A stretch of 36,234 nucleotides of DNA from Treponema sp. (GTDB taxonomy: Bacteria; Spirochaetota; Spirochaetia; Treponematales; Breznakiellaceae), in assembly GCA_009784935.1 (NCBI GenBank), contig WQXI01000023.1, positions 1-36,234 of the forward strand, given 5' to 3'. The first letter of the stretch is position 1, and every line of letters begins with the position of its first letter. The notes under the pieces are model-generated. The model saw only the letters and a list, made by a program, of their open reading frames with translations, had not been told where the DNA came from and searched no databases. Shown one piece after another: positions 5,037 through 34,764 of this stretch. The translations under genes were made by a program, and so were the position numbers.

Positions 5037-8000
5037 TTATAGCATAGCAAACGCGCTTTGTTCCAGATTAAATTGCTCTGCTTCTTCTGTAATTTCTGCC
5101 GCATGACCTGTCCGCAGATAATAGATCCAAACGCGGCATTGTTTTTTTGCGGCAGCCGCAAAAAGCGATGATACGGCATGATAATAACAGGACATCTGTG
5201 CCGCATGATCTTTTGGCGTTTCACTGCTGTCGGTTTTAAAATCTACTATATAGAAAGCGTCAGAAGTTTCAAAGAGCAGATCTATAACTCCGTTTATAAA
5301 TACTTCTTTTTGCTCTTTACTTCTTAAAATACTTCTAAAAGGAAACTCGTTTTCGCGCAATTCAGCATTTTTTGCCAAGCTGCCCAGAGGAGACTCAACA
5401 AAGCGGGCTGCTAGTTCCTTTCCAGCTTCCAGAAAAGCAGTCAGCTCCTGAGGCGACAAAAAGCCTGATATGCTAGAAGGAATTACCGGTTCTGTACCAT
5501 TAAAAAGAGCTTCTGTGCAGATATGGGCGATTGTTCCAAAGCTTGCATAGTTAAACTTTTCGTTATTATCTTCGCTGTTCTGCGGTGAATGCTGCAAAAA
5601 TCGTTGCAGCATCGTATCTACATTTTTAAATACATCATCGGATTTTTTTCCGGAAAATTCTTTGTTAATATTAACTGTATTTTCGCTGCCTGCGCCTTCT
5701 TTTTTTTCCTTCATCGAAACAGGCGAAATATGATTGTCAAAAATAAGCGGAGTTTTTATTACATTTGCGTCTTTATACAGATCCTTGGTCTTTTTTACAA
5801 ATGTATTTAATCCTTCGTTGTCATTTTTAATGTCAGTATTATTTAATTTTATTATGCTTTCTTCGGAATAAAATGGTATTTCTTCTAAGTTAAAGAAGTC
5901 AGGTGATTTGTCATATGAAGTTATAATGGGTAAAATAAGCCCAAAGAATGTATCATCATCAAGGATAGAATCGCCGTTAATGTAATTTTTATTTTTTTCC
6001 CATTTGGTTTCGCATTTTTCTTTTATATGAGTTTTTACTTTATCATAAAAATCGCCGGAGCTTAAACTGGCGCTTTCACTTAAATGTTCTGATTCCTTAA
6101 TATCTATTACGCCCGTTAAAAAGAGTCTTTCTTCGGCTCTTGTCATCGCCACATATAAAAGTCTTCGCAGTTCTGCGGTTCTTTTATGTTTTTCTTCTAT
6201 TTTTATCTGTTCCCAAAAAAAGTTCTTTTTAACGCCCGGAATATTTAGACAGGAATAAGGCATTGGAGGGCAAAAGATAATTCCTGCATTGTCTGATAAA
6301 TAAATATTTTTGCTTTGATTCCTTAAACTGTATTTTCCGCAGAAGGATATAAAAACCACAGGGTATTCCAGCCCTTTGCTTTTATGAATCGTTAATAGAT
6401 GAACAGCTCCGCTTCGATCTAAAGGAACATCAATATCTTTTAATCGTTTGCCCGATTCCCTCAGCTTGCACATGTAATCTGTAAAACCGGCAAGCCCTTT
6501 GTTTTCTTCATCAGCTGTTACCGCAAGATAAAAAAGATAATCATAATATTCGCGGCATATATTTGTATTTGGGTGCCACTCAGTTTCGTAGCGGTATCCT
6601 TCTTTATGCCACAATTCGCTTACAAGAGAACTTATATTCATTATTGAAGCTTTTTGGCGGATAGAAGAATAAATGTTTTGACCTAGAATATACTTTTCCT
6701 TGTCATTTTCATCAAGGCTTAAAAGCGCAGTGTCAGAAAAGGGAAGTTCTTCTTTACTCTCATTTAGGATAGAAAGGCAGACGGCAGTTCCGTTGATAGA
6801 AAGACCTGCAAAAGGAGAGCGGAGCATTTCTGCGTATGCCATTGTATCCAGCGGATAAGCCGTGAGGCGGAGAACTGATAAAATATCATTTATGACACCG
6901 CTGTAAAAAAGATCGTTTAAGTCTTCGCACGCATAAGGAATCCCAAGTAGCCTTAAATGTTTTTCGTACAGGTATTGCGAGCTGTGTGAGCGAAAAAGAA
7001 CAGCAATATCTTTTGGCTGATATTTATTTTTTCCTGTTTCTGTTTTTTCGCTTAAAAGATTAAGAATTTTTTCTGCTGTAAAGCGGGCTTCGTTTTCTTC
7101 TTTGCTGAGCGTATCTTCGGTTTCCAGTTCTCCGTTTAAAATGCATATTGATAAACTTCCATCACCTTTATTTTTTGCTTCTAAAGAAGAATAGGCAGCC
7201 TCATAAAGCGGAAGCGGTTCTGATAATTCCGGCGCAAAGACAGAAGGATGAATATGAAGCGGCTCTTTTCCTGCTGAATCAAAATTACTTCCCCCAAAAA
7301 TTGCGTTAAACGCGCCGATTAATAACGGAACAGAACGGTAATTTGAGTTTAACGAAAGATTCGCGCCTTTAATGTCATTGTTTAATTTCCTAAAAACAGA
7401 CACATCAGCGTTCCTAAAAAGATATATAGACTGTTTTTCATCGCCTACAAAGAAAAGTTTTCCTGGGCATAGATTGTCCGCAGAAGGGACACCTTTGCCT
7501 GTAAAATCAAGTTTTTCCGCCAAAAGAAAGAGCAGGTCTTTTTGCAGTTCATTATTATCCTGAAACTCGTCGATCATTATTGCTTTAAAGGCTTCTTTTT
7601 CGCTTTGCCTTATATCCGGCTGCTCCAAAAGAATTGTTCTTGACAGATTGGCTATATCTTTAAATGTAAGGATACCTTCGCAGCGTTTTCTGTCAAGATA
7701 TTTTTTTTGGAGTTTATTAAGTAAAGACATAAAAGAAATAATAAAACCGGATTGCATGCAAAATACAGCCATAGAAGAAAATATTTCATATAGATTTTTT
7801 ATTTGTTTAACGCTGTTCTTTACCGGGTTTTCGCGGGGTTTTCCCTTTTTTGTGCTTGTATTGCCTATATCAGAAATATAACAAAGTAATTTTTTTAATT
7901 TTTCTTGTATTGGATGGGATTCGGCTTTTTCTATTAGGTCATCTATTTTATTGTCTATTCTATTTTCAGTGCCGGTTTCTGTGCCGGATTCAATATCGCT

Positions 8001-11695: not shown

Positions 11696-12478
11696 TTAAT
11701 TTTTAAGAAACTTTTCCCTATATGCCTTGCCAATCCGTTTAAGGGTTTTTGACGCGGTTTCTCCCTGCAAAGCCTGCTTTTTTAAATCGATTGTAAATTG
11801 ATTCATAGAAAAATGGCGGTATAAAAAAAGATTATTATTAAATTCTATGTTTTTTGTACATAATTTTTTTAGTTCCTCGGTATAGATCTCGAAAATACCG
11901 CCTTTTTTCATTTCTGAATAACCTGTAATCCAGACAGGGCAGTTTAACGCTTTGTAAAAATCATTAAGCAAAGAAGCCATAACAACCTGTGATTCATTTA
12001 AGGCCTTTTGAATTGATTCAATCTGGTCTCCTTTGTCTCCTTTGTGAGGTATTTTTTTATTATTTTCTATACGGCAAAGTTCACGCAGTTCAATTGTTCT
12101 TGGAGAATGAATAGGCGTTTTATTTAAGATGATTACATTTTTATAGAAATCAATGCCGAGAGAAGGAGTTTCGCGGAAAAATTTATCGGCTATTTTACCG
12201 GATGGTCCGACAAGGTAACGTCTGTTTTCTGCAGCCTGCTCACGCCGTCCGGGATTATCGGCAACGAGAATCAATTTAATCTCGTCATTAATAGAAATTT
12301 TATCAAGCGCAGAATTATATACAACCGGAGTTTCTACTGTATAAGACGCTTCGCTTCTGCTGTCCGCGAATTTCTGCTGAATGCTTCTTAGGTTAGGAAG
12401 CGAAAGAGACAGTTCTTCTGTATATTTAAGAAAAACATTTTTTGTTTTTACAAAATTTTTCCACGAGCTTTGAGTCAA
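11696..12478 (-). CDS. Uracil-DNA glycosylase superfamily protein
   Basis: About 260 residues. The segment ILVADNPGRREQ...RRYLVGPSGK resembles motif 1 of the UDG superfamily (GxxPGxxE...GRPFVGxxG), and NVIILNKTPIHS resembles the following conserved strand (xVxLNxxP). A later RHFSMNQF could hold the second active-site motif. A role in removing uracil or related bases from DNA is therefore likely but not proven; family and substrate cannot be set. I choose the TTG at 12478 because GAGAGG lies 5 nt before it and it sits 1 nt after the stop of the upstream coiled-coil gene; a TTG at 12496 is also open. The DNA-repair genes addB and addA follow downstream. Confidence 0.6.
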   Translation of the reverse strand: MTQSSWKNFVKTKNVFLKYTEELSLSLPNLRSIQQKFADSRSEASYTVETPVVYNSALDKISINDEIKLILVADNPGRREQAAENRRYLVGPSGKIADKFFRETPSLGIDFYKNVIILNKTPIHSPRTIELRELCRIENNKKIPHKGDKGDQIESIQKALNESQVVMASLLNDFYKALNCPVWITGYSEMKKGGIFEIYTEELKKLCTKNIEFNNNLFLYRHFSMNQFTIDLKKQALQGETASKTLKRIGKAYREKFLKN

Positions 12479-12479
12479 A

Positions 12480-15400
12480 TTAACCTCTCGAAGCAATCTC
12501 CAGCGTCAGCTCAACTTCGCCGATTGATAACTTTAATGCTTCGGAGATTTGTTGATTTGTCCACCCTTGGCCTTTTAATCTTAAAACATTCTCGCGGATT
12601 TGCGGAGCCGGAGCGCCCTGACCTGCAGGCTGCTGTCCTTTGCCGTAAATTCCCTTGGCAAGCTGAAGACTCGCTTTTGCATTTTTATCAAGCGCCTTAA
12701 GTTCTGTTTCGGTTCTTGCGAGCCATTCACGGGCAATATCCATATCAGCAATTCTTTTTTCGATATGCGAAATGGATTCATCAAGAGAAGAAATCTTTTC
12801 GACTGCGTTTGTCGCTTTTTCCTGCTGTGACGCAAGGATTTCGATGGAAGAACGAAGGCTTTCGAACTGGCTTGAGAGAGCAGTGATGATTTTTTCTGCA
12901 TTCTTAATTGCGGTTTCTGTTTTTTGAAGCGTCTGAAAGTTACGATCGATTCCGTCGTTTGTTTGTTCCAGTACTTCGTTTTTCTTTTCTACGCGCTGAT
13001 ACTTTTGTTCTGTTTCCTTGATAGAATCTTCCAGCTTGCGTATCTGTACTTGAACAGCCTGAAGAATATCATCAGAAGCGGAAACCTGTTCGAGTTTTTC
13101 TTTGACAGAATGCGAAGTCTTTATCGCATTGTTAAAGTCTTTTTCCATCTGCTCTATGCGGCGCTGTTCTGTAAGGAAGCGCGTCATCTTATTATTAATT
13201 TCGTCTTCCAGTCGCCTTACGCTTGCTAATTTTGCTTCTAACTGAGCGATCTCATTCTTGCGCTGATCGAGGCGGTCAAGATCACCGTTGATTTCTTCGA
13301 TATTTTTTTCCAGGTCTTTTTTGAGTATGCCTGTCTGATCAAATATTTTTTTCTGAACGCCGAGTTCTTTGTGAATGTCGTCAACGCTCTGGCGGAAATG
13401 AGCGATACGTTCGTCGTTTTCGGCTTCTGTTTCTCTGCTTCTGCGGCGCAGGTCTTCTAGAGATACATCCATTTCGCGCATTCTTGTGTTATACTGGCTC
13501 TGCCATTCGTCCATGTTTTGTTTAGAATGCTGGGCAGTTTCTTCCATGTTTGTGTATGAGTTTCTGGAATATTCAGAAATACCTTCAATTTCTTGTTCCA
13601 GTTCCCTTTGTTTTGCGCGCATGTTTTCGTGTATTGTTATCTGGTACTGTCCGACTTGAGTTTTAACTTCGTTTTCGGCTGCAGTGCGGATAACAGAAAG
13701 GTCTTTTTTAACCTGTTCTGCAAATGACAAATGCGTTTCGTCGATATTGTTAATTTCTTTTCTTATGCTTTCTTCGAATGTTGATGTTTCGGTTCTTAAT
13801 TTTTCAAGGTCAGACGAAAGTCTCTCGCCGAGATTTGCTATATTCCTTTTGTGATCTGCGGTAATCCGTTCTTCCGCGAGTTTCCAGTCATGTGTAATTT
13901 TACCGCCGCTGTTGGAAAGGCGTTCTTCGAGTCCTGCCTGCCAGTGCGCAATTTGTTTTCCTGCTTCTGATGCGCGTTTGCCAAGTTCTGCGGTAAAATC
14001 TTTTTCGAAGGATGTGAGTTTTTCTGACACATTGTCGTATGCCTGCTGACGGATTTTATTAAGCTCCTTATCCATTTCTTCCAGTTCTTTACGAAGAGCC
14101 ATTGCCTGTGTATTAAACGCAGACGCCGCGTTATCCATGCTTTCGCCTGATTCTTTTTCGTAGGCTGCAAATTCATTTTTTACTTTTGCTACAGCATCAT
14201 CCATGGAAGTGCGGAGTTCTTTGACAAGCTGCTGTGCTTCTTTAGGAAGGTCGGTTAAATGCTTGATAGTTTCGGCATTGCTTTTGTTGTATTCTTCTAA
14301 GCGTTTTTCGTTTGCTGTTATAATTTTTTGTTCAGATTCCCTGCATAAAAGTTTCCAGTCTTCCATCTGTTTTTCCAGCGCAGAGCCAAGATCGTCATGC
14401 TGACTGTTTACAGCGGCGTCTGTTTTTTCTTTTAATTCTTTTAATACCAAAGAAAGTTCGTCTTGCTGTTGTTTAACAGCGGAGCCTGATTTTTCTTTAA
14501 TATCAAAAAGAGCGGCGCTGAGTTCGCCGTGCTGTTGCTTTATAGCTGCATTTGATTTTGTTTTAATATCTGTAATAGCGGCATTAATTTCGTCATACTG
14601 CTGTTTAAATGCGCCGTCTGACTTTGCTTTTATATCGATGATAGCGGCATTTATTATGTCATATTGCTGTTTAAACGCTCCGTCAGATTTTGCTTTTATA
14701 TTGACAATAGCGGAATCGATCTCTCCATGCTGCTGTTTAAACGCGCTGTCTGACTTTGCTTTTATGTTGACAATAGCGGAATCGATTTCGCCATGCTGAT
14801 GCTTAAACGCGCTGTCCGATTTTTCTTTAATGTCAGCAATAGCGGCAATAAGTTCATCGTGCTGCAGCCTGACAGCGGCCTCAGATTTTTCTCTGACATC
14901 TTTGAGAGTAAAGCTGAGCTCGCTCTGCTGGTGCTTAACAGCAGTATCAGATTTTTCTTTTATATCTTTAAGTGTAAAAGAAAGTTCGTCATGCTGTTGT
15001 TTTAAAGCGGCTTGAAGTTCATCATTTTGCTGCCTGACAGTGATATTAGATTTTTCTTTTATTTCTTTAAGAGTTAAGCCAAGTTCGTCGTTTTGCTGTT
15101 TAATAGCAGAGCTCGATTTTTCTCTTAAATCATGCAATACAGCTGTTAGTTCTTCGTTCTGCTGTTTCTGCAGGCTCTTTGACTGTGTCTGCAGTTCTGT
15201 CAATGAAGAATTAAGTCTGGAAATTATATCGTTAGTTTCCTGTTGTTGTAATTTGACAGCCGCGCCGGATTTTTCTTTTAATTCTGCAATGCCGGAACTG
15301 ATTTCTTTCTGGTGTGTTTTAACCGCAGAATCAAGCTCGTCATGCTGCTGCTTCAGCGCCGCCTGTGATTTTGCTTTAAGTTCCATTATTGCATTATTAA

Positions 15401-16583
15401 GTTCCTGCTTGGAAATAGAAAGGCTTGTATCAAGATCCTTGCGTTGTTTCTCGGCGGATTTTTTTAATTCCTGAAAATTTTGATTCCAGTCGTTCTGCTG
15501 CTGAAGAAGAGCGGCATTAACAGTATCTCTTTCTTTTGTAAGGGAGCTTGTAATATCATGCTGCTGGCGCGCAAGAGAATTGGCAATATCTTCTTTTTGT
15601 TTTTTTGCAAGGTTGTCAAGTTCTGCAGCTCCCTTAAGCCATTCCTGATGATAATTTTTTTGCCTTGTGCTAATATCTGTTATCTCTGTATTCCACTTGT
15701 CGTGAATATTTTTTAGTTTTTCGTTAATCGAAAACTGTTCATTTTTGAGCGTATCCTGCGAAGTTTTTAATTTTTCTTCAAAGAAAGATTTAATCTGGTT
15801 AACTCTTTCCATTGCCTGTTCGCGTAATTTAACAAGAGCGGCGTCTTCCATCTTGTCCGCGCGTTTTCCGGCGTTTTCTAAAACATCCTTTAACAGTTTT
15901 TTTACCTGTTCTATATCGCGCGTAAGGACAGCTTCCCTCTCACGTTCAATTTTAAAAACCGCTTCCCTGTGTTCTTCTATTTTACGTTCTATTACATGAG
16001 CTGTTGTTTCATAGTCAGACAGCGTTGACTTTGCTGAGGACAGAACATCACGTACAGCAATTTCCATAGCTTCGGCGTTTTTCTTTTCGAGGCGTTCTTC
16101 GGTTTCCGCAAGATTTCTGCCTGCGGCTTCCAGAGCTCTTTCGACCTGTTCAAATTTTTCTCTGGCTTCGCCTACGCGCTTACCTGTATTTTCTACAAAT
16201 GCGGATTCGTCTTTTATACGGTTTAAGTTTTCCTGAACCCTGTCGGTCATACCAAAGAGTTCTTCCAGCGAGGATTCGAACGCGCGGATATGTTCTTCTA
16301 TACGTGATATGGATTCTGATTTTTTTGCAAGTTCTTCTTCTGTAAGTTTTTGGATATTTTTCATTAACTGGGAAGCGGCTTTTTTTTCCACATCCAGATC
16401 AATGCCAAAATTCTTTACCGCCATGCTCTTTTCTTCTGCGTAAGCGGCAATTTCTTCCTTGCATTTTTCGGCGTATTTTTTTACCTTTTCCAGAGGACGA
16501 TTGTTTTTATCAGCCAGTCTGTAAAGGATAAGCGCGCACGCAACAATGCCAAGCGTTATTAGGTTTCCTATTGTAAATTCCAT
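12480..16583 (-). CDS. Giant membrane-anchored coiled-coil protein (SpiroCoCo-like)
   Basis: 1367 residues from the ATG at 16583, which has a GGGGAGGG ribosome-binding site about 12 nt upstream; an in-frame TTG at 16619 lies before that site and is less likely. Residues 3-22 form one transmembrane helix. Nearly all the rest is predicted coiled coil rich in Q, K, E, S and A. The middle contains tandem 22-residue repeats (two 11-residue units each). The last 40 residues (VLRLKGQGWTNQQISEAL) look like a helix-turn-helix with a sigma-region-4 or DUF6115 flavour. I believe such proteins are catalogued as the 'SpiroCoCo' family of spirochaetes; that name is from memory. A structural or scaffolding role under the inner membrane is inferred. 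It is followed 1 nt later by the UDG-like gene. Confidence 0.8.
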   Translation of the reverse strand: MEFTIGNLITLGIVACALILYRLADKNNRPLEKVKKYAEKCKEEIAAYAEEKSMAVKNFGIDLDVEKKAASQLMKNIQKLTEEELAKKSESISRIEEHIRAFESSLEELFGMTDRVQENLNRIKDESAFVENTGKRVGEAREKFEQVERALEAAGRNLAETEERLEKKNAEAMEIAVRDVLSSAKSTLSDYETTAHVIERKIEEHREAVFKIEREREAVLTRDIEQVKKLLKDVLENAGKRADKMEDAALVKLREQAMERVNQIKSFFEEKLKTSQDTLKNEQFSINEKLKNIHDKWNTEITDISTRQKNYHQEWLKGAAELDNLAKKQKEDIANSLARQQHDITSSLTKERDTVNAALLQQQNDWNQNFQELKKSAEKQRKDLDTSLSISKQELNNAIMELKAKSQAALKQQHDELDSAVKTHQKEISSGIAELKEKSGAAVKLQQQETNDIISRLNSSLTELQTQSKSLQKQQNEELTAVLHDLREKSSSAIKQQNDELGLTLKEIKEKSNITVRQQNDELQAALKQQHDELSFTLKDIKEKSDTAVKHQQSELSFTLKDVREKSEAAVRLQHDELIAAIADIKEKSDSAFKHQHGEIDSAIVNIKAKSDSAFKQQHGEIDSAIVNIKAKSDGAFKQQYDIINAAIIDIKAKSDGAFKQQYDEINAAITDIKTKSNAAIKQQHGELSAALFDIKEKSGSAVKQQQDELSLVLKELKEKTDAAVNSQHDDLGSALEKQMEDWKLLCRESEQKIITANEKRLEEYNKSNAETIKHLTDLPKEAQQLVKELRTSMDDAVAKVKNEFAAYEKESGESMDNAASAFNTQAMALRKELEEMDKELNKIRQQAYDNVSEKLTSFEKDFTAELGKRASEAGKQIAHWQAGLEERLSNSGGKITHDWKLAEERITADHKRNIANLGERLSSDLEKLRTETSTFEESIRKEINNIDETHLSFAEQVKKDLSVIRTAAENEVKTQVGQYQITIHENMRAKQRELEQEIEGISEYSRNSYTNMEETAQHSKQNMDEWQSQYNTRMREMDVSLEDLRRRSRETEAENDERIAHFRQSVDDIHKELGVQKKIFDQTGILKKDLEKNIEEINGDLDRLDQRKNEIAQLEAKLASVRRLEDEINNKMTRFLTEQRRIEQMEKDFNNAIKTSHSVKEKLEQVSASDDILQAVQVQIRKLEDSIKETEQKYQRVEKKNEVLEQTNDGIDRNFQTLQKTETAIKNAEKIITALSSQFESLRSSIEILASQQEKATNAVEKISSLDESISHIEKRIADMDIAREWLARTETELKALDKNAKASLQLAKGIYGKGQQPAGQGAPAPQIRENVLRLKGQGWTNQQISEALKLSIGEVELTLEIASRG
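14390..15400 (-). repeat. Tandem 66-bp (22-residue) coding repeats
   Basis: Within the coiled-coil gene about a dozen units of 66 bp follow one another. At protein level each unit pairs FKQQHGEIDSA-type and IVNIKAKSDSA-type 11-mers. Similarity is highest in the centre (about 14570-14830), where adjacent DNA units are nearly identical, and decays outward. This indicates recent unequal crossing-over or slippage. Confidence 0.85.
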
Positions 16584-28885: not shown

Positions 28886-28906
28886 GCTGACAATTGCAGC
28901 TTGTTT
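28884..28906. terminator. Weak bidirectional hairpin after hisF
   Basis: AAGCTG (28884-28889) pairs with CAGCTT (28897-28902) around a 7-nt loop and is followed by GTTTA on the plus strand. It overlaps the hisF stop and lies directly after the convergent nucleotidyltransferase gene. The stem is short and the T-run poor. Confidence 0.35.
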
Positions 28907-29690
28907 ACACCCACTCCCAGGGGTCTGCAAAGTTGTTCATAATAATATTGTCATCCCTAGGATAATCATAGGAAGTCCATGCTTCGTAGCTGTCTACAAT
29001 CGCTTTGCAGTCTTCGTCCGATAAAGTTTGCATTAATTTATTACATTTTTCGATTATATTTTCTGGTTTGTTTGGAGCAAGCTTCACATATTCTTCGATT
29101 TTTCGCATAGAAGGAAAAAGAATCTCGTTTTCTATTAAAATTAAGCGGTAAAGATTGTAAATTATCCCGTCAGCTACGTGGTGGCGGAAAAATCCTTCGG
29201 GTTTACAGGCTGTCCAAAAATAACCGAAATACATTTTTAAAGTACAGTAAAATTTAAATTGTTTGGATAAAGCGTTTTGTTTTTGAAACACAGGGATTTT
29301 TTTTGCTAATTCTTCATAGATTGGGTCATCACAAAAAAGCGTAACAGCGCAGGAAAACATATTACGCATAGGCTCCGAACCGCTTTTTTCAATATTTATT
29401 AAATCTTTATATGTCATGTAATGAATATTAAAGTAACCGCCGTCATAAGTGCATTTGCCGTAGTAGACTTCTTCCAGTCCCTCATTGTTTTTTTTGTGGT
29501 CGTGGTATTCTTGTGATACGATTGCAACCCCGTCTATATCAGAATTGGGACGCGCAGTTCCCGTGGCAACAGAACCAATTAAAAACAGCGCTTTTATTTC
29601 TGTATTTTCACGGTAATGTTTAGTCATGTTTTTTATGGATTCTTTATGATGTTCCATCATTTGATGATCCATCATATGGTGTAAAAGCAT
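28905..29690 (-). CDS. Nucleotidyltransferase-domain protein
   Basis: 261 residues. FLIGSVATGTARPNSDIDGVAIV shows the GS...DxD signature of the Pol-beta-like nucleotidyltransferase fold (Gly39, Ser40, Asp51, Asp53). The remainder is helical and resembles small-molecule or antibiotic nucleotidyltransferases in size. The substrate is unknown. The first 15 residues contain five His and five Met (HHMMDHQMMEHH), an unusual segment that could bind metal. The ATG at 29690 has GGAG at 7 nt, so this N-terminus is probably real. It lies 35 nt after dnaE2 and may be the last gene of that operon. Confidence 0.75.
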   Translation of the reverse strand: MLLHHMMDHQMMEHHKESIKNMTKHYRENTEIKALFLIGSVATGTARPNSDIDGVAIVSQEYHDHKKNNEGLEEVYYGKCTYDGGYFNIHYMTYKDLINIEKSGSEPMRNMFSCAVTLFCDDPIYEELAKKIPVFQKQNALSKQFKFYCTLKMYFGYFWTACKPEGFFRHHVADGIIYNLYRLILIENEILFPSMRKIEEYVKLAPNKPENIIEKCNKLMQTLSDEDCKAIVDSYEAWTSYDYPRDDNIIMNNFADPWEWV

Positions 29691-29725: not shown

Positions 29726-32725
29726 TTAATTGTTAAATAAAGAATGAACATAATTGATTATTTGCACTTCAAGAGAAATGGCTCCCTCGTCATTAACGAC
29801 CTTGCCGTAAACTAATAGCGGCTGCTGATCAAAAAGAAGTTTATGGTATTTTTCATACACATCCGGAAACACAACAGTTTCGTATAAAGCTGTTTCATCT
29901 TCGAGGCTTAAAAAGCACATTGTTAACCCGTCTTTTGTCCAAACATCTTTTTGGGTAACCTGCCAGCCGATCATTTTTACATTTTGTCCAATGTAATCTT
30001 TAATATGAATAGCTTTAACTCTGCTTTTAACAGCAAGTACATCGTCTCTCCAAAGAGCCAATGGGTGTAAGTTTCTTAAAAATCCCATAGCATTATATTC
30101 TTCCCATAGATCACTCAATTGATCGCTTTCCGTGATAGGCGCTTTTTTAGAAGATATGTTATAGACAGGCGTTGTGTCGGAAGTAAATAAATCCGATTGT
30201 TCTTTTTTTACATTGCTATTGTTAGCGGCTAAAAGTTTCCTTGCTTGCATAGGTCTTGATAGACCCTCTGCGATACTGTCAAAAACACCGGCAGGGCAAA
30301 GAGCGATTATGTCATCACGACCGAGTTTAATTCTGCGTGAGAAGTCGTTTATGTTTTTATATACGCCGTTTTTTTTCCTGTCTTCTAAAATTGCATTTGC
30401 TCCCGAAACTGATAAACCTTTAATCGCCATAAGTCCGATAACTAATACATCATCCTTGCCGTAATAATGCCAATGAGATAAATTAACATCCGGGCCCTCG
30501 GTAAAAAGACGCATGCGGCGCGCTTCTGCAATATACGCATGAGGACGGTAAAATCCTCCCTGATTGGAAAGCACAGCTGCGATAAATGCTGCAGGATAAT
30601 GAACACGCAAATATGCCGATTGAAAAGAAACCATGGCATAAGAAGCCGAATGAGGTTTGCAGAAAGAATAACCGTCAAACGATAACATCATTTCCCAAAT
30701 TTTAGTTAATGTTTCTTCGTTTACATTATTTTTTCTGCAGCCTTCAAAAAACTGGTCTTTATAAACTGCCAATTTTGTGCCGCCCATTTTCTTCGCAATA
30801 ACTTTTCGTAATTTATCTGCGTCAGTTTCATTAAAGCCTGCCAGGGCAACAGCCGTCTTTGATACATCCTCCTGATAACACAAAATGCCATAACTTTCGT
30901 TTAATATATTTTCGAGTCTGGGGTGTAATGGTTTCCATTTACCGCCTTTTAACCTTCGTACATATTCGTTTATAAACTTATTTGCGGCAGGTCTTATTAT
31001 AGAAGAATGTATTACGATATGATCAAAATCTCCTCTATTGGTTTTTTTCTGCAGCTGCCGCATTGCAGGGCTTTCGATATAAAATACCCCGATACTGTCG
31101 CCGCACGCCAATGCTTCGATTGTAGGTTTATCATCAACAGGTTTCCATGTATGCTGATCAATCGTTATTCCCTGTTCTTCGATATTTGCGATAACGTCTC
31201 TTATCACCGCCAAACTCCGGTTACCGAGTAAATCAATCTTTACAAATCCTGCAGCTTCTGAACCTTCCTTTTCCCACGCCATAAGCGGATATCCCTCTGC
31301 CGATTTTTCAATTGGCACATAACGGCGTATCGGTTCTGGTGTAATAACAACACCGCCGCAGTGCATACTTATTACACGAGGTAAACCCTCTATTCTTTTT
31401 GCAATAGAAAAAATTTCCTGCCATAAGCTATCCTGCGGATAGCACGGCTCCTGAAACAAAGATTTGTCTCCCATTTGAAAAAGCCGTCTTTCTATCTGTG
31501 TAATTTCTGCGTCTCCAAAGCCGTAAGTCTTGGCAGTTTCCCGTAACGCAGATCTGTACCGGAACATATTATGGTTTGCGACTCTTGCGCAATAATCAGC
31601 GCCAAACTTTTCTATTACAGCTTTTATTAATTCGTCTCTTTCGTCCCAGGCAAAATCAATATCAATATCAGGGGGATCTGGACGAGAAGGATTTAAAAAT
31701 CTTTCAAAATATAAATCGTGCCGTAAAGGATCAACGTTGGTAATTCCAAGTCCATAAGAAACTATCGATGCTGCTCCAGAGCCGCGGCCGCAAGTTCGTG
31801 ACGCCATTTTAACAATGTCATCAATTACCAGAAAATACGGCGCAAAACCTTTTTTATTTATTATACTCAACTCATAATCTATACGGCCAATTTCCCTGTC
31901 GGCAAGTTCTCCGTATCGCAAAGAGTTTCCTTCGTAAACCCGCTTTTTTAATTCATCAGCTACACTAATATCTTCGATATTTTGTCCGTCAGTGTGATAT
32001 TCGGGAAAAATCCAGCCGTCAAATAAATTATTATAAGTGCAAAGAGCCGCAATTTCGTTTGTACCTTTAATTGCTTCGGGCCAGGAAATTAAATAGCGGT
32101 GCAAGTCTTTGGAAGATTTTAAAATCCTGCCGGCATTTGCAGTATCGTCTTTTTCCAAATTACCCGTAGTTTTTAACAGTCGAATTGCGCATAACACTTT
32201 GTGAACAGAATAATCGTCTTTTTCTAGCATTAAAGAATCGTCTATAAAAGCAAGCGGTATATTAAGCTTGCGGCTTATGTCTACAGCTCTGCAATCAGTT
32301 GGAGTAATCGAAGCATATAACCGTTTAACTTTACAATTAAGGTTTTCCAGAATTTGCGTATCAGAAGAAACAAAAACAAGCCCAGATGATTGTTCAATTA
32401 AAAGTTGTATAGGGTTAAACCGCTCTTTATCTTTATTGCGTTCTGTAATTATTTCGCACAATCGGCAATAACCCTGTCTATTTTCGGCAAAACAATAAAC
32501 TGCAGCATTAGCGCTGTCTCCGATAGTCAAACAAGCTCCGATAATCGGACGGATATTATTTTCCTTTGCCGCTTCTAAACTTGAATGGATTCCATATAAA
32601 TTGTTTAAATCACAAATCGAAATTATTTTACAATCAAACGAAGCTAACTTTTCTATCAATTTTTCCGGCTTATGTACTCCATACAAAAGTGAGTAGGCAG
32701 AAACTGGTCCAAGGCGAATATTCAA
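29726..32725 (-). CDS. dnaE2: DNA polymerase III alpha subunit, DnaE2/ImuC type
   Basis: 999 residues, shorter than replicative DnaE (about 1160). The polymerase catalytic aspartates are present: Asp355 and Asp357 in PDIDIDFAWDERDEL and Asp498 in GFVKIDLLGN. The N-terminal PHP domain has lost the usual HxH metal motif (NIRLGPVSAYS), so it is unlikely to proofread. The C-terminal OB domain (MIGWQVTQKDVW ... LVYGKV) is followed by the end of the protein, without the tau-binding tail of DnaE1. Its start ATGA overlaps the stop of the ImuB-like gene by 4 nt. Size and pairing with an inactive Y-family protein point to the error-prone DnaE2/ImuC of mutasome cassettes. It also contains a 17-bp palindrome at 31427-31443. 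A main replicative role cannot be excluded without the rest of the genome. Confidence 0.8.
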   Translation of the reverse strand: MNIRLGPVSAYSLLYGVHKPEKLIEKLASFDCKIISICDLNNLYGIHSSLEAAKENNIRPIIGACLTIGDSANAAVYCFAENRQGYCRLCEIITERNKDKERFNPIQLLIEQSSGLVFVSSDTQILENLNCKVKRLYASITPTDCRAVDISRKLNIPLAFIDDSLMLEKDDYSVHKVLCAIRLLKTTGNLEKDDTANAGRILKSSKDLHRYLISWPEAIKGTNEIAALCTYNNLFDGWIFPEYHTDGQNIEDISVADELKKRVYEGNSLRYGELADREIGRIDYELSIINKKGFAPYFLVIDDIVKMASRTCGRGSGAASIVSYGLGITNVDPLRHDLYFERFLNPSRPDPPDIDIDFAWDERDELIKAVIEKFGADYCARVANHNMFRYRSALRETAKTYGFGDAEITQIERRLFQMGDKSLFQEPCYPQDSLWQEIFSIAKRIEGLPRVISMHCGGVVITPEPIRRYVPIEKSAEGYPLMAWEKEGSEAAGFVKIDLLGNRSLAVIRDVIANIEEQGITIDQHTWKPVDDKPTIEALACGDSIGVFYIESPAMRQLQKKTNRGDFDHIVIHSSIIRPAANKFINEYVRRLKGGKWKPLHPRLENILNESYGILCYQEDVSKTAVALAGFNETDADKLRKVIAKKMGGTKLAVYKDQFFEGCRKNNVNEETLTKIWEMMLSFDGYSFCKPHSASYAMVSFQSAYLRVHYPAAFIAAVLSNQGGFYRPHAYIAEARRMRLFTEGPDVNLSHWHYYGKDDVLVIGLMAIKGLSVSGANAILEDRKKNGVYKNINDFSRRIKLGRDDIIALCPAGVFDSIAEGLSRPMQARKLLAANNSNVKKEQSDLFTSDTTPVYNISSKKAPITESDQLSDLWEEYNAMGFLRNLHPLALWRDDVLAVKSRVKAIHIKDYIGQNVKMIGWQVTQKDVWTKDGLTMCFLSLEDETALYETVVFPDVYEKYHKLLFDQQPLLVYGKVVNDEGAISLEVQIINYVHSLFNN
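31427..31443. repeat. 17-bp palindrome inside dnaE2
   Basis: GCTATCCTGCGGATAGC is identical to the intergenic copy at 285-301. Here it is in frame and encodes residues 428-433 (CYPQDS) of the polymerase, in a linker before the conserved IAKRIEGLPR segment. Confidence 0.7.
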
Positions 32726-33948
32726 TTACTGCCTCCCGCTGTTATAAGTCGTTTCCCGTTTCCCAAATTCGAAGCAGTAAATACAAGGCCTCGCGTAATT
32801 TTTCCCATACCAAAGCGATTTTGAATTTTGTCTACTGCTTCCTGTATCTGCCTGTTTTTAATTTCCGTTTCCGGTTCGAATAATTCAGGTGCATAATCAA
32901 GCGGTATAAATTCTTCAAGAGACAAACCTATCGATCTAATCCTGATTCTCCTAACCGCAGTTTTTTTTAAAATTTTATATGCGGCTTCGGTAATATCACG
33001 ATCCAAAACAAAAGGCTTCATACCTGCGGAAGGAGATCGTTTTTCCTGTCCTTCTGCAGTCATGCCATCGGCATAAAAAACAACCAAACGAATTAAAGCC
33101 GCTCCCAATTTATTACGCCGCATTTCAAAACCGCCAAACCCCGCAAGCCCTTCAATTGCTCCTCTAATCGCAATTTCGTCTATCACATCTTCGTTAAAAT
33201 CAGCCTGTTGAGTTATTTTTTGTTTTCCGCTTCGATCGATTACAGGAGAGTTATCGATTCCCAGTGCCATTTCCCGCAAAGCGCCGCCATTTTTACCAAA
33301 CAAAGACAAAGCCTCGCCGGCAGACAGATTGGCTATTTCCCCAATCTCCCGAATGCCAACAACCGCCGCAGTTTTTTGGAGTTTTGCTCCCATGCCCGGC
33401 AGCAGCCGTACAGCCTGATGTTGTAAAAATTCAGCTTCTGTTTCTGCCTGCACCTGTATAAGCCCCATTGGTCTGATTGCTCTTGTAGCAACTTTAGAAA
33501 CCAGTTTATTGCAGGCAACCGCGGCGGCTGGTTTTATCCCAACCTGGTCAAGAATTGTGTTTAATATACGGCTTGAACAATCCATAGGGGAGCCAAAAAT
33601 ATTTTTTGTACCTGTAATATCAAGATATAAATTACCGGCTCTGTCATTTTCCCATAATGGCGCATAACGCTCGGCAATCTTTTCAAGCTCGGTATTCATT
33701 AGTTCGTAAGCGGGAATATCAGGAGATAGAATAATCAAATCGCTGATGCGCTTTTGGGCAGCCGTAAGCGTCATTCCCGGAGTAATGCCCTGTTTGATTG
33801 CTTCCGGTGAACAATCAAGCGTTACGTTCCGTCCGCCTGTTGCGCCTGCAATTACAAAGGGTCTGCCGCGCAAACTGATGTCTTTAACTTCTGCAACCGC
33901 AGCTTTAAAACCAATTATATTAAGGTGTGTGATTGTCCTTTCTTTCAT
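32722..33948 (-). CDS. imuB: Y-family polymerase homologue lacking catalytic residues (ImuB-like)
   Basis: 408 residues with the overall DinB/UmuC layout: palm/fingers, thumb with a helix-hairpin-helix (RLLPGMGAKLQKTAAVVGIREIGEI), little finger, and a short C-terminal tail. The active site is gone. Where Dpo4 has FVDFDYFYA with Asp7, this protein has HLNIIGFKA (Asn10), and where Dpo4 has IDEAYLD with Asp105/Glu106 it has AGNLYLD (Gly105/Asn106). The steric-gate Tyr is a Lys. Loss of all three carboxylates is the hallmark of ImuB, which acts as a hub linking DnaE2 to the sliding clamp. It is shorter than many ImuB proteins, and I see no certain clamp-binding peptide. The ATG at 33948 has AAGGAT upstream, overlaps the DUF72 gene by 29 nt, and the gene overlaps dnaE2 by 4 nt. 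Confidence 0.75.
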   Translation of the reverse strand: MKERTITHLNIIGFKAAVAEVKDISLRGRPFVIAGATGGRNVTLDCSPEAIKQGITPGMTLTAAQKRISDLIILSPDIPAYELMNTELEKIAERYAPLWENDRAGNLYLDITGTKNIFGSPMDCSSRILNTILDQVGIKPAAAVACNKLVSKVATRAIRPMGLIQVQAETEAEFLQHQAVRLLPGMGAKLQKTAAVVGIREIGEIANLSAGEALSLFGKNGGALREMALGIDNSPVIDRSGKQKITQQADFNEDVIDEIAIRGAIEGLAGFGGFEMRRNKLGAALIRLVVFYADGMTAEGQEKRSPSAGMKPFVLDRDITEAAYKILKKTAVRRIRIRSIGLSLEEFIPLDYAPELFEPETEIKNRQIQEAVDKIQNRFGMGKITRGLVFTASNLGNGKRLITAGGSN

Positions 33949-34729
33949 TTATAATCCTTAATAACTTTTCCAGCGTTTGTGCATTGCGAACCGCTTTACC
34001 AAAAGGGTGATTATTAAAAAACACAAGTATCCGCCGGGCTTGTTGACAAATACGTTTTATCCGTGCTGCTAACGCTTCAATTTCATTATCAGAATAGAGA
34101 TAGTCATATCGTGCATGATCATCCTTTCCCCACCACGCTTCTTTGTTACGGCCGTGCATACGGATATACGCAAGCGGAGCAGTAACAACATCCATAGTAG
34201 GCGGCAGTTTTGGCAATTCGGGCAGATCTACCGACACCAACGGAACTTCCCTGTTTTTCATTCCTTCGATAACTTTGGTAATACACCAGTCCGCAGTTCT
34301 AAACTCGACAGCTAACGGCACATCCTTAAAGTATTTTAAAAGACTGTCCAAATACCGCCTGTTATCATCGGTATAATGGAAGGAATAGGGAAACTGAAAC
34401 AAGACAGCTTCCAGCCGTCCCGCTTTAAGCATAGGTTCTATAGCCTTAAGGTAGGTATTGGCTTCGTTCTGCCACAGCGAGGGATTTATCTCGTGGGTCA
34501 AAGTTTTATGGGCTTTAATGGCAAAAGTAAGTTTTTCGCCCCCATCTATCAGCATTTGAGACAGATTTTTGGCCTCGGGCATTTTGTAATAAGAGAAATT
34601 AAGCTCTACAGCAGGGAAGAGCTCCGAATAACAGCCCAAAAAGTCCTTCTGTTTTGTACCCTCGGGATACACGCACCCGACCCATTCGTTATAAGAGTAC
34701 CCGCTTGTACCGATTAATATTTCCGCCAT
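33920..34729 (-). CDS. DUF72 family protein
   Basis: 269 residues, the normal length for DUF72 (YecE-like) TIM-barrel proteins of unknown function. Signature segments are ILIGTSGYSYNEWVG at the start, FPAVELNFSYYKMP, FAIKAHKTLTHE, LFQFPYSF, VEFRTADW, YIRMHGRN and FFNNHPFGKAV. These conserved polar residues line the presumed active-site end of the barrel. It is first in an operon with the ImuB-like and DnaE2 genes, overlapping the next by 29 nt. The start ATG at 34729 fits the family N-terminus (MAEILIGTSG) although no ribosome-binding site is present and the predicted transcription start coincides with it. A part in DNA damage tolerance is inferred only from this linkage. Confidence 0.88.
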   Translation of the reverse strand: MAEILIGTSGYSYNEWVGCVYPEGTKQKDFLGCYSELFPAVELNFSYYKMPEAKNLSQMLIDGGEKLTFAIKAHKTLTHEINPSLWQNEANTYLKAIEPMLKAGRLEAVLFQFPYSFHYTDDNRRYLDSLLKYFKDVPLAVEFRTADWCITKVIEGMKNREVPLVSVDLPELPKLPPTMDVVTAPLAYIRMHGRNKEAWWGKDDHARYDYLYSDNEIEALAARIKRICQQARRILVFFNNHPFGKAVRNAQTLEKLLRIINERKDNHTP

Positions 34730-34735
34730 ACATTA

Positions 34736-34764
34736 ATACTACATATTTGTGTAGTAAATGTCAA
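34736..34764 (-). promoter_or_regulatory. Promoter with palindromic operator for the DUF72-imuB-dnaE2 operon
   Basis: On the minus strand a perfect TTGACA (34759-34764) is followed after 17 bp by TAGTAT (34736-34741). A perfect inverted repeat TACTACA-N6-TGTAGTA (34737-34756) covers the spacer and the -10. A repressor bound there would block RNA polymerase. Transcription would begin at about 34729-34730, at the DUF72 start codon. The palindrome resembles in style the LexA operators of some bacteria, but no LexA gene is in the window. Confidence 0.6.

Follow-up and report, generated by a model that had tools for sequence, protein, structure and literature searches.

The 36,234-nucleotide (nt) contig WQXI01000023.1 of Treponema sp. 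(assembly GCA_009784935.1), analyzed here at full length as the window, carries on its minus strand three overlapping genes that code for a DUF72 protein, an inactivated Y-family polymerase (iPolY) and a second DnaE. These genes form a conserved cassette to which DUF72 regularly belongs, and we read it with reasonable confidence as an SOS-inducible operon for translesion synthesis, one of the DnaE2B-iPolY-RecA kind in which DUF72 is a regular extra gene and not a stand-in for ImuA. A preliminary description of this DNA had suggested a role of DUF72 in translesion synthesis as the replacement of ImuA in a mutasome; the first part is upheld insofar as DUF72 belongs regularly to a conserved mutasome-type cassette (a dead Y-family protein plus a second DnaE), and the replacement of ImuA is given up for the reasons discussed below. 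The three genes are the following:

33920..34729, minus strand: DUF72 gene, 269 amino acids, first gene of the operon (Pfam DUF72, 6e-58)
32722..33948, minus strand: iPolY, 408 amino acids, probable scaffold (Pfam IMS and IMS_C)
29726..32725, minus strand: second DnaE, 999 amino acids, TTG start, DnaE2-type (Pfam, motif table and tree)

A conserved cassette that regularly includes DUF72

Open reading frames and Pfam matches agree with the tight overlaps first described, 29 nt between DUF72 and iPolY and 4 nt between iPolY and DnaE. In the source genome (G000; 2.37 Mb, 68 contigs, 94.6% complete) DUF72 occurs once, the Y family is represented by the cassette gene alone and there are two dnaE genes. 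The other DnaE (G000:C5) is 32% identical to the cassette DnaE, so that the latter is not the sole alpha subunit, a possibility raised at the outset. A sample of 296 phylum genomes was surveyed for conservation by inspecting iPolY, DUF72 and DnaE neighbourhoods, iPolY carriers being separated from other Y-family genes by a score gap (at least 198 bits versus at most 138 bits). Fourteen genomes carry iPolY, and all of them have DUF72 as its immediate upstream neighbour in the same orientation (cut by the contig end in G186). All 14 also hold the three genes together, with DnaE directly after iPolY in 12; G177 has its cassette-type DnaE on a separate contig, and so does G162, where the iPolY contig ends inside that gene. 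Each of these genomes additionally has a DnaE1 counterpart (30–33% identity).

A scan of named genomes with a single peptide pattern, which overlaps with the phylum genomes so that the counts are not summed, was restricted to the best 80 of 129 relatives. By record title these loci comprise 37 from spirochaetes, 36 from Desulfobacterota/'Delta', four others (two Chitinivibrionales, one Fibrobacter and one Phycisphaerae) and three unclassified or doubtful. The gene before iPolY is DUF72 in 35 of the 37 spirochaete loci, 3/4 of the others and 3/3 of the doubtful ones; the two spirochaete exceptions are L046, which begins inside iPolY, and L093, with a truncated iPolY behind a transposase-like open reading frame. 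The Desulfobacterota arrangement is lexA–(DUF72)–iPolY–DnaE: of the 36 loci, 21 have a full DUF72 and 12 have none, two show a partial match (L091, and L114, where the contig ends) and one (L107) is undecidable. A same-strand lexA precedes 17 of the 21 cassettes with full DUF72 (within 0.9 kb) and 11 of the 12 without it. A purely local linkage is thus rejected, since the cassette recurs across genomes and phyla. In L091 the short DUF72 match (7798–7974) stands between lexA and iPolY and is perhaps a remnant decayed in place. The cassette is also found in two IMG/VR contigs and on the mobilizable Desulfosarcina ovata plasmid Do28_1, where lexA and DUF72 are followed by a Y-family gene that the annotation calls a hypothetical protein and by DNA polymerase III alpha. 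G212:C1 bears two iPolY/DUF72/DnaE sets (L006 and a second copy; 869197–869865), with two short DnaE2-like pieces elsewhere. In two spirochaete loci (L167, L168) lexA and DUF72 are followed by a reduced, diverged Y-family gene (IMS confirmed for one), with no adjacent DnaE seen; a third spirochaete has the lexA-DUF72 pair.

The Y-family protein of the window lacks the catalytic Asp/Asp/Glu. Across the cassettes, with some genomes present under two ids, the corresponding columns hold N (91/91 rows with a letter), G (93/93) and H or N (80 and 13 of 93), against D, D, E in 16/16 active Y-family relatives compared. Its tail contains two motifs:

32878..32892, minus strand: clamp-binding-like APELF, iPolY residues 353–357 (alignment of tails)
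32773..32877, minus strand: RecA-N-terminus-like motif, iPolY residues 358–392 (hhalign, RecA N-terminal 45 columns: E 7.5e-6, probability 84%)

The resemblance to the RecA N-terminus is confined to windows that cover the second motif (E 2.5e-6 to 2.6e-5), those ending at or before residue 372 giving E 0.032 or worse; it is weaker against a 300-residue RecA profile (E 4.9e-4, probability 32%), and the structure model of the tail is a helix of low confidence. This is the RecA-NT motif of PMC6511836. The first motif, which may bind the clamp, appears in some other cassettes as QAELF, QLDLF or QPDLF. The ImuB-C domain (DUF6504) was found in 0/14 cassette genomes with a positive Caulobacter control, the domain being weak yet present in two reference ImuBs (24.5 and 23.9 bits).

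The cassette DnaE has PHP, alpha NTPase, finger, HhH and OB domains in Pfam, retains both catalytic Asp motifs and ends shortly past the OB fold. In the window the PHP HxH residues of DnaE1 are lost, and most DnaE2 proteins are described as lacking the PHP site (PMC3919608). One further motif was recorded:

30185..30199, minus strand: clamp-binding-like QSDLF, DnaE residues 843–847 (motif table)

A loose clamp-type motif is present in 16 of 39 cassette DnaEs. In our own quick tree of 54 DnaEs the 41 cassette members form one clade (Shimodaira–Hasegawa-like approximate likelihood ratio test 99; long branches flagged by the program). Its neighbour is a Bacteroidota PolY-linked DnaE; spirochaete DnaE1 lies outside it, as do the three proteobacterial DnaE2 proteins compared, two of them ImuAB-linked and one unlinked.

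The iPolY and DnaE pair fits the DnaE2B-iPolY-RecA module (gbDinB2 type) of PMC12926913 and PMC6511836: both have an inactive Y-family protein with a RecA-like tail and a DnaE2 partner, both lack ImuA and ImuB-C, and here the only IMS gene in the source genome is that of the cassette. Such operons often include lexA (PMC6511836). The difference is DUF72, a term that does not occur in the main text of PMC12926913, whereas here DUF72 is first in nearly all spirochaete cassettes. Compared with the ImuA-ImuB-DnaE2 cassette, the likeness is a dead Y-family protein and a second DnaE in one operon; unlike it, the present cassette has no ImuA and no ImuB-C, its DnaE belongs to another clade and DUF72 is present.

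Just past DnaE, on the same strand, lies a gene of the nucleotidyltransferase fold (28905–29690) with MntA antitoxin and ANT(9) model matches below cut-off; it had no tblastn match among the 82 loci L039–L120. Elsewhere in the window, positions 12001–16000 show an AT skew of -0.28 and -0.30 in two adjacent 2-kb blocks, unlike the remaining window.

The promoter and its relation to recA and lexA

Upstream of DUF72 the following elements were recognized:

34759..34764, minus strand: -35 hexamer TTGACA
34736..34741, minus strand: -10 hexamer TAGTAT, 17-nt spacer, 6 nt before the ATG
34737..34756, minus strand: 20-bp palindrome TACTACACAAATATGTAGTA spanning the spacer and the -10 hexamer, probable LexA site

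The cassette message is perhaps leaderless. The recA promoter of the same genome contains TACTTAACAAATATGTAGTA, with 18 of 20 bases in common with the cassette palindrome TACTACACAAATATGTAGTA, and the pattern TACTNNACNNNNNTGTAGTA, built to fit both sites, has exact matches in the genome at those two places only. Two further tests are less circular. With a matrix made from 21 cassette sites, the recA promoters of 8 of 13 genomes and the lexA promoters of 4 of 14 were found to contain a site (each reached in 0/300 dinucleotide shuffles). Conversely, a matrix from 8 recA/lexA sites, themselves chosen with the first matrix, matches 35 of 42 distinct cassette promoters (at most 2 of 200 mononucleotide shuffles), 12 of the 54 loci having been dropped (6 with no or a short upstream region and 6 duplicates). 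The site stands exactly 10 nt before the DUF72 start in 20 of the 42. A LexA-domain match was obtained in 14/14 cassette genomes (198/296 phylum genomes overall) and a full RecA in 13/14. The cassette is probably under LexA control, because its palindrome is common with the recA promoter and related sites precede recA or lexA elsewhere; binding of LexA is predicted from this common promoter site.

Several observations weigh against SOS control of the operon. When one mismatch is allowed, TACTNNACNNNNNTGTAGTA gives four matches in the source genome, equal to its reversed control, and some of the counted matrix scores (15–17) fall within the range that shuffled sequences from other regions attain (up to 19.1; 16.7). 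The lexA promoter of the source genome has no site of this spacing (score -1.5) and contains another palindrome only, TTACTACAGGTAGTAA; nine other lexA and five recA promoters of the set have no site either, and it is missing in 7 of the 42 cassette promoters, four of them Treponema-titled.

In six loci (L039, L040, L041, L045, L119, L120) an opposite-strand gene lying some 0.4 kb upstream of DUF72 matches the LexA profile weakly, at 31–45 bits. It perhaps encodes a local repressor; L039, L041 and L045 are without the usual operator.

The place of DUF72 in the operon

For DUF72 (PF01904) the Pfam match, the TIM barrel and a conserved pocket were all confirmed. The pocket residues (E42, K72, H79, E142, R144, D168, R190, H192, N239 and N240) are invariant in 55/55 aligned rows; the conserved pocket contains Lys, Arg and Asn, and few His. 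Nucleases of the UV-damage endonuclease and endonuclease IV type have a multi-metal His/Glu/Asp cluster. The 50 structural neighbours listed for DUF72 do not include endonuclease IV, which excludes nothing, and TM1631, a member of the family, has been modelled as endonuclease IV-like (PMC3828134). Probably DUF72 acts enzymatically on damaged DNA; to name an activity on DNA lesions is a guess, the fold being equally near sugar epimerases and UV-damage endonuclease.

In the preferred reading, that of an SOS-inducible DnaE2B-iPolY-RecA operon with DUF72 as an added part, a LexA-type repressor would cover the promoter of the undamaged cell through the 20-bp palindrome, and DNA damage would lead to the joint production of DUF72, iPolY and DnaE2. 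The dead iPolY would serve as a scaffold, anchored to RecA at the stalled fork by its RecA-like tail, and would recruit DnaE2 for mutagenic synthesis, a complex predicted from the published models of the DnaE2B-iPolY-RecA module. At the stalled fork too, DUF72 would most likely act on the lesion or abasic site, or shield it.

The possibility first put forward, that DUF72 is a structural substitute for ImuA that binds iPolY and completes the mutasome, is suggested by its first position and tight overlap, by its near-constancy in spirochaete cassettes and by the lack of an ImuA in the genome. A canonical imuA elsewhere had been named as an observation that would speak against this idea: the ImuA model NF033429 gave a match over its cut-off in 0/14 cassette genomes, a cut-off that two plasmid ImuAs (66–68 bits) and the Caulobacter control also miss, so that a diverged ImuA could escape; the 13 weaker matches all lie at RecA loci, and the only one in the source genome is RecA itself. 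RecA, not DUF72, most likely fills the role of ImuA, because the iPolY tail resembles the RecA N-terminus, a published sign of this (PMC6511836 and PMC12926913). DUF72 is moreover missing from 12 of 36 Desulfobacterota/'Delta' cassettes, its pocket is enzyme-like and its fold other than that of RecA, and three Burkholderiales plasmids have DUF72 beside a complete set (imuA-imuB-dnaE2-DUF72). With the likely RecA docking motif on iPolY, the DUF72-less cassettes and these plasmids indicate that DUF72 is an added part, and its replacement of ImuA was rejected as improbable. Among 12 annotated plasmid DUF72 loci besides that of Desulfosarcina, three stand right behind dnaE2, two have imuA within 6 kb and the remaining seven show no imuA and no polymerase gene over the length viewed; some nearness of DUF72 and dnaE2 on plasmids is expected, since a relative of the Burkholderiales plasmid DnaE2 occurs on 785 plasmid records.

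It is rather unlikely that DUF72 shares only the promoter and is SOS-coregulated for a separate job such as nucleotide or sugar-phosphate clearance. Spirochaete lexA-DUF72 pairs without a linked DnaE (L166–L168), stand-alone DUF72 genes in relatives and the many sugar epimerases among the structural neighbours would agree with such a job; the 29-nt overlap with iPolY, the agreement of DUF72 and iPolY distances and the presence of DUF72 beside several kinds of polymerase cassette, including polB2, near which it is enriched (PMC11791011), argue against it. That DUF72 is simply carried along in a cassette moving as a mobile block appears very improbable: the mobilizable plasmid, the two IMG/VR contigs, the two copies in G212 and the patchy spread (14/296 genomes) point to mobility, whereas the pocket is the same in all aligned rows and DUF72 stands first behind the operator and is retained across phyla.

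On the opposite side of the balance for the translesion-synthesis reading stand four points concerning DUF72 itself. Its fold is equally near sugar epimerases, many of which are among its structural neighbours, and UV-damage endonuclease; it stands alone in many genomes, relatives included; the 12 DUF72-less cassettes are scattered over the DnaE tree; and the correlation of DUF72 and iPolY distances (r 0.89 over 41 cassettes, 0/2000 permutations as high), itself a point in favour of co-inheritance, has no unlinked-gene control, and co-inherited genes also track the species tree.

A comparable arrangement is SRAP–PolY–DnaE on an Adhaeribacter swui plasmid (L207, Bacteroidota). There too a DNA-damage protein gene precedes PolY and DnaE, with the differences that SRAP takes the place of DUF72 and that the Y-family protein keeps the catalytic D, D, E. 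SRAP protects abasic sites (PMC11791011), and by analogy its place before PolY-DnaE suggests the kind of job that DUF72 might have. Tentatively, at somewhat less than an even chance, DUF72 may be a general lesion-handling enzyme of mutagenic polymerases that processes or shields abasic or bulky lesions so that DnaE2 passes; TIM-barrel proteins of different DUF72 branches would have come to adjoin at least three kinds of mutasome, namely iPolY-DnaE2B, ImuA-ImuB-DnaE2 (in some Burkholderiales) and, in the literature, PolB2, much like SRAP.

Other neighbourhoods of DUF72 were noted as well. In the Rhizobium phage RHph_TM2_3B (L225) it overlaps a gene annotated as DNA recombination-mediator protein, and the same pair of names occurs in the other Rhizobium phage matches listed. 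On the Paraburkholderia plasmids L230 and L231 it lies a few kb from Ku (with LigD in L231), a DNA-repair neighbourhood.

Significance for the DUF72 family

Structures of the family have been solved (TM1631, EF0366) without an assigned function, and here one of its members heads a probable SOS translesion operon. No paper linking DUF72 to DnaE2 or ImuB turned up in our searches of open-access papers, and the gene is unnamed in the main text of a recent catalogue of eleven mutasome types. The promoter site offers a candidate LexA-type operator for one group of spirochaetes. DUF72 is widespread, being present in 9 of 14 control genomes, including E. coli, B. subtilis and Sulfolobus, and the fact that it regularly opens a probable SOS operon for translesion synthesis provides a testable lead on a family without assigned function. 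If true, general lesion handling would assign a role to proteins of this family, which E. coli, Bacillus and archaea possess as well.

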